Made by a program: the position numbers and the translations under genes. From assembly GCA_021907015.1 (NCBI GenBank), contig CP091064.1, positions 4,278,001-4,342,000 on the forward strand: a DNA stretch of 64,000 bases, read 5' to 3'. Positions 61,267 to 63,147 of this stretch are shown piece by piece (within the stretch, counting starts at the first letter, position 1; every line of letters begins with the position of its first letter). Source of the stretch: Pectobacterium sp. PL152. GTDB lineage: Bacteria > Pseudomonadota > Gammaproteobacteria > Enterobacterales > Enterobacteriaceae. Below the pieces are notes generated by a model. It was given only the letters and a program-made list of their open reading frames with translations, ran no database searches and had not been told where the DNA came from.

Positions 61267-63147
61267 TTAATGATGATGCAACAGGTCATCAACAACCTGA
61301 TCGCTGGTAAGTTGATAAGGATAATACGTTGGCCAGTTATCCATTTCTTTAAGGATCGCTTCTTGAGAGGTATTTCCCATAAAGATATGGAAGTGGGCTG
61401 ATTTACGCGGCGCAATGGTGTGATCGCTGAACTGGACGTATTTAGGTGCTTTCGATTGGGCATCTTTACATTCAAAGAGGTAGCGCACACCTTTTTACCC
61501 GAGACATAGTTAAGGATCTTATGCCCAGCATAGTCATAATGGCATGAGGTGACTTCGCCATCTTTATGGAATTCCATGACGCCATTTTCTATTTTTATTT
61601 CTGAAACAGTGGTGGCGTAGCCTTTCCGGTAATAATCTTTAACTTGTTCAACGGTATTGCTCTTATCGCTTTCCGCTTTCTTTTTGAAAACCGGATCCAT
61701 TTCACCTGATAGCATAATAGGGTAAATAGACTGCCACATACCTTCCCAGTCGGTAAGCGCTCTATCTTTTACATCGCTATTATTGAAAACACCATTGGCT
61801 GCTTTCTTTTCCATTTCGGTCATGGGCGCACCATGTAAATGGTCGTGGTCGTGGTCGTGGTCGTGGTCGTGGTCGTGGTCGTGGGCATGGTCGTGAGAAT
61901 GCTCATGACCGTGATCGGGAATGACCATGATCGTGAGAAGTACCGTGCTCATGGACTTTGCCCGATCCCCGACAGCAACAATGTTGAACGGATGTCCCTG
62001 TACAGCAATTGTGCTGGTTTCTTTCAGCTCCACCGCATCCAGCACGTGAATTTTGCTCTTTAGAGGATCGGTAATATAGATGCTGTTAGCCGCGACGGCG
62101 ATACGCGGACGCGCATCGTTCCAATGTCCGTCCATCGAGTACGGTTCGGTGACGCGTACAGATTGGGTAATCTCCCCTTGAGCACATCAACCTGATTTAA
62201 CTTGCCGTCTTCCGTAAAGACATAAGCGTATTTTGGACGTACCGGATCGACGGCGAAATGCACGCGGCGGGTTGGCAACTGTACCAAACGGAAGCTCTGC
62301 GCTTCGGTTGGGTCGATAAGTACGATGCGATCTGGGCCGTAGTTACCGATAAAGAACTGCATGCCTTTACCGCCGATCAGTGTAGAAACGCTGCCTTTCG
62401 GCAATGTACTGGAGTAAGGCAGATGACGGATTTGGGGGTATCGCCTTTCTGGGTTATCAGCAGCAGGCCTGTTTCGCAGGACAGAGCGTAAGTATCGCCG
62501 GAGCTGGCAGAACCGTGCAGACCCGGGCAGGCCACATTCTCACCGACAATTTTACTATCCAGACTGATCACATGGGCGCCGATCGGGCGTTTGGAGGCAT
62601 CTTCTGGGTTAGGAATGGAGGCGACGATATGGTTGTCATACGGAACAGCAACGCCATGGTGCGGCGCACCAACAAGCACTCTTTTCGCGTCATTGACGCC
62701 TTCCAGCACCGCGTGTTCACTCAAGACCATCGTGTAACGTTCGCCATCAAACCACTGGGCGACTTTGCCCTGACGTTCGACAAAGTGCCCCGGCTTTTTG
62801 CCTGTCAGTTGGGTCTTAAGTAATGTGGGTTCATCGATATCAATATCGGCGTGATCGCCGTGATCGTGGAATGAGATGCCGGAACCGATCATCGAAACGG
62901 TTTCCGCGCTGCCCTGAACGGCAAACACCGTCGCACCGTTTTCACTGCGATAAAGTGATGCTGGCCCTTTCACGGTAAAGGAGGTCAGCTTGTTGCCATT
63001 AAGGGCATCAATCACGTTTACGACGGGCTTCTCGCGATCGGCGACGAACAAACGCCAGGCTGTGACATCTTCTTCTGCCGCCATTGTTGATCCCGCTGTA
63101 CCCAGCAGAATGGCTGAAATAGATAGCGGTAATAAAAGCTTTTTCAT
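61267..63147 (-). CDS. AztD-like zinc chaperone fused through a His-Asp-rich linker to a ZinT domain (about six apparent frameshifts)
   Basis: ATG 63147, with GGAGATCCAC before it, opens a signal peptide ([24 protein letters not shown]). About 390 residues form an AztD-type beta-propeller: [20 protein letters not shown], the zinc motif [36 protein letters not shown] and [20 protein letters not shown]. After HPFNIVAVG a linker of repeated HD units follows, then a full ZinT domain: [40 protein letters not shown], then [14 protein letters not shown] and [20 protein letters not shown]. No stop, signal peptide or start separates the parts. The breaks are single-base and lie in or near short runs. 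The product is about 628 aa, periplasmic. Confidence 0.8.
61841..61884 (-). repeat. 6-bp tandem repeat encoding (His-Asp)n
   Basis: The unit GGTCGT is repeated just over seven times, encoding alternating His and Asp on the minus strand. It lies in the linker between the AztD and ZinT domains. In-frame copy-number change is possible without breaking the protein. Confidence 0.9.

Follow-up and report, generated by a model that had tools for sequence, protein, structure and literature searches.

Fusion of the zinc chaperone AztD with ZinT in Pectobacterium and in Hyphomicrobiales

A gene in which the coding sequence of the periplasmic zinc chaperone AztD continues through a His-rich linker into a complete ZinT domain was found, broken in frame, in a stretch of 64,000 nucleotides from Pectobacterium sp. 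PL152, referred to below as the window. The joint is intact in a second genome of the same genus (G011) and, separately, in Hyphomicrobiales, and thus the fusion is real and represents a recurrent design, not a sequencing error. The same architecture, with the zinc ligands of both partners conserved, occurs in an intact state in relatives, and according to phylogenetic trees it has more than one origin. The best explanation, which we regard as probable, is that the gene encodes a true fusion protein, exported as one chain and acting in a periplasmic zinc relay, the frame breaks of the window being most likely assembly errors.

In the window, three pieces of AztD are followed in the right order by two pieces of ZinT, the latter recognized by both PF09223 and NF007639 (Table 1). 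The AztD profile NF038015 gives the AztD pieces 219.6, 97.9, and 62.2 bits, each below its cut-off of 400 bits. Alignment with the 622-residue ORF of G011 divides the window copy into four collinear pieces in three frames, which match residues 1-245, 244-333, 330-548, and 546-622. Left uncorrected, the frame at 61257-62135 (292 aa) runs from the last part of AztD across the His-Asp linker into ZinT, of which it covers about 60%, and its linker is partly out of register with that of G011 (15 of 33 linker codons skipped). The first three ligands of AztD zinc site 2 are seen in the window; the position of the fourth, His408, sits in the out-of-register stretch. The frame-broken aztC gene lies directly upstream of the fusion and runs past the window edge.

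Table 1. Features of the aztD::zinT locus in the window
Feature	Position	Strand	Evidence or remark
aztD::zinT fusion gene	61267..63147	-	Frame-broken in the assembly; profile matches and intact G011 counterpart (L002/L086)
AztD piece 1, with the signal sequence, the HGDHAD motif of site 2, and the His residues of site 1	62434..63147	-	tblastn, E. coli AztD residues 1-238; NF038015, 219.6 bits
AztD piece 2	62168..62437	-	tblastn, E. coli AztD residues 238-327
AztD piece 3, reaching the start of the C-terminal tail	61956..62180	-	tblastn, E. coli AztD residues 324-398
His/Asp-rich linker, partly out of register	61833..61955	-	Gap between the AztD and ZinT tblastn matches
6-bp repeat, 9.3 copies, coding Asp-His within the linker	61840..61895	-	Run much shorter in G011
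ZinT domain, first piece	61401..61832	-	PF09223 profile positions 2-111; tblastn
Second ZinT piece, containing the stop codon and three His	61267..61500	-	PF09223 profile positions 111-181
aztC, binding protein of zinc ABC transporter	63193..64000	-	NF040870, 160.2 bits in one piece; three tblastn pieces
Frame-broken zigA, convergent to the fusion, for a COG0523-type zinc GTPase	59773..61015	+	NF038288, three pieces
Zur-box-like palindrome upstream of zigA	59606..59623	.	Exact match; pattern read off the window

The G011 counterpart is one open frame of 629 codons, or 616 aa if counted from the ATG of the signal sequence. Its chain consists of the signal sequence, AztD, the His-rich linker, and complete ZinT, with no stop between the domains. 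Most of the stretch compared in G011 is collinear with the window, and the order of aztC, the fusion, and convergent zigA is shared. The G011 protein (P0001) scores 441.3 with NF038015 and 341.5 with NF007639, compared with NCBI cut-offs of 400 and 300, respectively, and 259.5 with PF09223 (cut-off 27). The profiles together with this ORF confirm the coordinates and strand of the fusion, which the earlier note had reported from the window sequence alone; its reading of one frame after correction of single-base breaks agrees with the intact frame of this relative. Conversely, two separate genes that look fused only due to sequence errors at their boundary might be expected in an error-rich window, the more so as two other genomes of the genus keep the genes separate; we consider this most improbable, since the G011 frame and 13 other ORFs read through the joint and no hydrophobic leader separates the domains in any of the 14. 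For G011 such a boundary artefact is directly refuted by the intact ORF.

The number of frame breaks in the window was estimated by mechanically listing G011 ORFs of at least 120 aa in stretches matching the window over at least 85%. Of 34 comparable ORFs, 12 are frame-broken in the window, nine of them outside the cluster and three being the fusion, zigA, and aztC. In addition, three of four ZnuA-family genes, aztC among them, are split in the window genome (G000), compared with 0 of 19 in five relatives. Both counts lead us to read the breaks as the load of a poor assembly, and the breaks in the fusion as most likely assembly or sequence errors. Pieces of both domains are under purifying selection, with substitutions mostly synonymous per site: the dN/dS ratio between the window and G011 is 0.18 for AztD (401 codons used, 3 skipped) and 0.14 for ZinT (185 codons), both being rough values from a comparison of two lineages only. 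Decay of the gene to a pseudogene in the window strain, with a working fusion in its relatives, could account for the four pieces in three frames and for the broken state of the adjoining zigA and aztC, but the breaks outside the cluster, the split ZnuA-family genes, and the mostly synonymous substitutions make it quite improbable. The zigA gene, broken in the window, is open in G011, G008, and G019.

Among 24 other genomes of the genus, the fusion was found in G011 alone. In G008 and G019, aztD and zinT are separate genes, zinT is divergent from zigA, and ZinT opens with a hydrophobic leader. G009 has a separate zinT, with no aztD found, and G015 has aztABCD without zinT. The remaining 19 of the 24 genomes gave no match to the query used; G016 and G022, which are among these 19, contain distant whole-protein matches (E-values 7e-21 and 3e-21, respectively). 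A relative with a stop codon and a separate, leader-bearing ZinT, named in the earlier note as evidence that would count against the fusion, thus exists in G008 and G019, where it represents the unfused state, and is not seen in the collinear G011. Unfused AztD proteins of the genus end in a His-rich tail, and unfused ZinT has a His-rich start after the leader. Besides aztC, three members of the ZnuA family were found in each of the six genomes of the genus examined, one of which, G009, has three in all.

Outside the genus, a scan of 397 genomes in the order of G600 yielded seven full-length open fusions from four genera and three families. This order includes Afifella pfennigii (G958), which NCBI places in Hyphomicrobiales, and so we identify it with the latter. 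Together with G011 and six named Hyphomicrobiales records, these seven genomes bring the total of intact fusions to 14. The domain search that the earlier note proposed therefore added 13 intact fusions to that of G011, and its statement that AztD and ZinT are normally separate holds for G008 and G019, with the qualification that the fused architecture recurs in Hyphomicrobiales. In G944 and G1104, of the same order, the match sets in towards the C terminus of AztD, and these loci may represent incomplete or broken fusions. Scanning of named genomes brought 38 loci, including two intact fusions (Devosia geojensis and D. crocina) and a broken one in a metagenome-assembled genome (MAG). The D. 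geojensis protein matches 210 plasmid records, eight of which cover at least 80% of it: three from Phyllobacterium, two from Sinorhizobium meliloti, and one each from Mesorhizobium huakuii, Devosia, and Rhizobium sp. Q54. The match in the S. meliloti copies begins only at residue 63, and the Mesorhizobium and Devosia plasmid copies are in two and three pieces, respectively. Negative scans covered 392 genomes of the family, where none of the matches listed spans both domains and G011 is not among the genomes with a listed match; 398 genomes of the phylum, with no fusion besides that of the window; 29 genomes of the family centred on G651, where the fusion was not found; and 5,426 E. coli genomes, with no locus covering 80% of the query.

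Applied to five of the 14 intact fusions, NF038015 scored three above 400 and the others at 382.4 and 396.2. The four of these other than the G011 fusion exceed the PF09223 cut-off and stay below that of NF007639 (214-222 bits). In nine fusion genomes (the window genome, G011, and seven of Hyphomicrobiales), profile search found the fused ZinT only and no second ZinT locus. The broken MAG locus (L079:8034-11068), titled Chitinophagaceae, is a cluster of aztABC, aztD::zinT, and a zigA-like gene that resembles those of Hyphomicrobiales, and the contig is probably misbinned.

Zinc ligands were mapped by alignment with PDB structures. In the available part of the work of Neupane and others (PMC6689063), site 2 of Paracoccus denitrificans AztD is formed by His99, His102, Asp104, and His408, and only from this site does zinc pass to AztC. 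In the structure 6ck1, the last of the 408 residues of this protein aligns with H401 of the G011 fusion, and its site 1 residues His124, His167, and His218 align with H122, H165, and H212. All ligands of both AztD sites, the two Cys, and the three conserved His of the ZinT domain, which we take to be zinc ligands, are retained in 14 of 14 intact fusions. The joint sits just beyond the C-terminal transfer-site His of AztD, and in all 14 the linker starts at this tail. The linkers are 20-57 residues long and contain 5-20 His (14 of 14), in line with the His-Asp-rich linker described in the earlier note. An N-terminal AztD signal sequence, also predicted there, was seen by eye and by hydropathy: the hydropathy maximum over the 70 N-terminal residues of the open frames is 1.90 to 2.53. 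In the linker, the corresponding maximum for a 12-residue stretch is -0.69 in the G011 protein and still lower in each of the other 13 fusions. Neither a stop nor a second hydrophobic leader lies between the domains in any of the 14 intact fusions, in agreement with the suggestion that this ZinT lacks a start and a signal of its own. Whole-unit slippage of the 6-bp Asp-His repeat in the window (Table 1) would alter the length of the zinc arm and keep the frame.

For the phylogenetic analysis profiles were used to cut out the domains. Rows identical to others or contained in them were removed, as were those with coverage below 82% (AztD) or 85% (ZinT), the coverage filter excluding the window pieces and the MAG copy. 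The ZinT tree has 60 rows, 14 of them fused, and carries a long-branch warning (L119); the AztD tree, with 75 rows and 13 fused, was built by a quick method without bootstrap. In both trees the G011 domain clusters with three unfused ones of its genus (support 100/97 for ZinT and 95 for AztD), and thus the G011 fusion arose separately. A single clade of all fusions is rejected by the AU test on both sides (ZinT, p 8e-6 with 14 fusions; AztD, p 7e-55 with 13, quick tree). If G011 is set aside, a single clade of the other 13 fusions is not rejected for ZinT (AU p 0.39), and one of the other 12 is rejected for AztD (p 4e-43, quick tree). The fused and unfused labels change at least eight times in the AztD tree, eight changes being forced by well-supported branches, and at least four times in the ZinT tree, two being forced; these changes may be gains or losses. 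From these sequence trees we conclude that the fusion appears to have at least two origins; one very old fusion followed by many later splits is formally still allowed. Outside Pectobacterium, either several AztD lineages acquired a ZinT module, or existing fusions came apart again and moved. Transfer of a whole fusion from Hyphomicrobiales to Pectobacterium was considered and rejected, as each half of the G011 fusion has its nearest neighbours among unfused genes of its own genus. An unfused aztD in G903 (L156:6546-9153), with zigA directly downstream, encodes an AztD placed in the tree as sister of the AztD from the D. crocina fusion and perhaps represents a later-lost fusion or a pre-fusion state.

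At the G011 fusion joint, the DNA match to the separate genes switches within approximately 20-27 bp of His codons. Relative to aztD, zigA and zinT have swapped places between the unfused G008 locus (L089:9021-11089) and the fused G011 locus (L086:5804-9122), and a Zur-box-like palindrome stays with zigA across this rearrangement. Simple deletion was rejected as the origin of the Pectobacterium fusion, since it leaves unexplained the place swap of zigA and zinT with respect to G008 and G019. Duplication followed by loss would account for the arrangement; profile search revealed no second ZinT.

In G011, aztA, aztB, and aztC lie upstream of the fusion on the same strand, and zigA is convergent. 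Among 18 fusion loci read with their flanks, aztC is present in ten, seven of which have aztA-aztB-aztC upstream on the same strand; it was not found beside the fusion in the other eight, including both S. meliloti copies. These counts refer to neighbour matches of more than 35% identity and 80 bits within approximately 5-6 kb upstream, so that more distant binding proteins would be missed. Five fusion loci of the Hyphomicrobiales type have a close zigA match downstream in the same orientation. A His-Tyr-His stretch resembling the AztC loop is visible in the aztC piece of the window.

The palindrome upstream of zigA, 18 bases long and, we assume, an instance of the enterobacterial Zur pattern, is exact in both the window and G011, and shuffled sequences rarely or never yield it. 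A copy with two mismatches lies upstream of aztA in G011, and one with a single mismatch occupies the zigA-zinT interval of G008 and G019. For the shorter matches to the core that precede aztA in G015 and G008, the counts are within chance, being reached in 89 and 18 of 200 shuffles. Two more copies with two mismatches each, none being expected by chance, occur elsewhere in the window (12514-12531 and 20579-20596).

The proposed mechanism is as follows. Zinc starvation would induce the system, as suggested by the Zur-like boxes upstream of aztA and zigA, and a single chain made up of AztD, the His/Asp-rich arm, and ZinT would reach the periplasm by means of the one AztD export signal. There the ZinT end and the His arm are predicted to catch zinc. 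Because the arm begins at the C-terminal His that completes site 2 of AztD, zinc could pass locally to this site, then presumably to the His loop of AztC, and finally to the AztB/AztA permease. ZnuA is the usual partner of ZinT, which is known as a ZnuA helper; the fusion would shift ZinT from ZnuA towards AztC. The placement of three zinc-capturing modules next to AztC, proposed in the earlier note, agrees with the position of aztC just upstream in the window and with the two AztD sites, one ZinT site, and linker expected by homology; it is weakened as a general rule by the eight of 18 loci where aztC was not seen. The same eight loci weaken a strict link of the fusion to AztC.

A different function, in which the protein buffers periplasmic zinc or detoxifies metal as a sponge, binding mostly through the His arm and without directed transfer, would be in line with the His/Asp-rich linkers (5-20 His in 14 of 14), with the longer Asp-His repeat of the window, and with the description of AztD as an apparent periplasmic zinc reservoir in the available part of PMC7731109. 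It appears improbable, as starvation is indicated by the gene neighbours and Zur-like boxes of both the window and G011 and the transfer site is kept in all 14 intact fusions. Alternatively, the fusion may be passive, sharing only an export signal and a promoter, so that ZinT serves ZnuA or acts alone. Since G011 has three ZnuA-family genes besides aztC, the ZinT end may still serve ZnuA; the presence of such genes in the genomes of the genus examined, the variation of linker length from 20 to 57 residues (14 of 14), as for a tether without fixed geometry, and the eight of 18 loci without aztC found beside the fusion all agree with this explanation. It is nevertheless doubtful, given that the fusions do not form one clade and yet have the same domain order and a linker starting at the tail with the transfer-site ligand in 14 of 14.

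Returning to the directed relay, we tentatively propose a more specific scenario, in which the AztC pathway has captured ZinT more than once by joining it exactly at the site 2 His, the His arm and ZinT together acting as an extended loading arm within the chain; different AztD backbones outside Pectobacterium would carry a related ZinT module, and in Pectobacterium the 6-bp repeat would tune the arm length. This scenario is plausible, though we would not bet on it. In the accessible part of PMC7463823, both termini of AztD are placed near the transfer site, and Citrobacter AztD is described with a His-rich C-terminal tail. The same source reports that the N-terminal His motif of P. denitrificans AztD apparently has no part in transfer, and thus the His arms need not matter.

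The available portions of PMC6689063 and PMC7463823 state that direct hand-over of zinc from ZinT to a binding protein was undemonstrated as of 2019 and 2020. A natural AztD-ZinT chain with its AztC partner could provide a single purified protein for site-by-site tests of the relay from ZinT through AztD to AztC, and the recurrent identical joint suggests that both chaperones work on one route. The annotated full-length fusions examined in sequence databases bear the name of one domain only, either AztD or ZinT. Equivalent fusions are annotated as ZinT, with the CDS started inside the AztD tail (L082:7147-7755), or as AztD (L158:5001-6806). The AztD-ZinT fusion is absent from the available parts of PMC6689063, PMC7463823, PMC5387054, PMC12183173, PMC7731109, PMC7858048, PMC10957091, and PMC8561739, and no paper on it was among the matches listed in a literature search, most subscription journals being outside its scope.

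Comparison with known systems relates the fusion to three protein families. With AztD of the AztABCD system (NF038015; PDB 6ck1, 6n01, and 6cmk) it shares the whole propeller, both zinc sites, the disulfide Cys pair, and the His-rich tail, and in G011 it likewise lies in an operon with aztABC. The solved AztD chains end at the site 2 His (6ck1) or approximately 16 residues later (6cmk), whereas in the fusion approximately 215 residues of linker and ZinT follow. With ZinT/YodA (PF09223, NF007639; PDB 4arh and 1oee) it shares the complete domain and the three-His site; however, ZinT/YodA is a separate protein with its own signal sequence, and the ZinT of the fusion has no leader and is joined to AztD. 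Database proteins with the same architecture include WP_262263483.1 (601 aa, Phyllobacterium sp. A18/5-2, annotated as AztD) and CAD6436314.1 (610 aa, Rhizobium sp. Q54, annotated as ZinT), which are alike in domain order, ligands, and linker type. Fusions of their type do not form a single clade with the Pectobacterium fusion, and the close zigA match downstream of five such loci is co-oriented, not convergent. Finally, streptococcal AdcA (NF033605; PDB 7jj9) similarly has a C-terminal ZinT fused to another zinc-uptake protein, by a linker of 11 residues according to the available part of PMC7858048. The G011 protein is not a member of the AdcA family, as it scores 219.7 with NF033605 (cut-off 700), through its ZinT part only, and has no ZnuA domain by Pfam. 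The parallel drawn in the earlier note nevertheless holds: by analogy, the fusion can be regarded as the chaperone-side counterpart of AdcA, the partner of ZinT being an ABC binding protein in AdcA and the chaperone AztD here.
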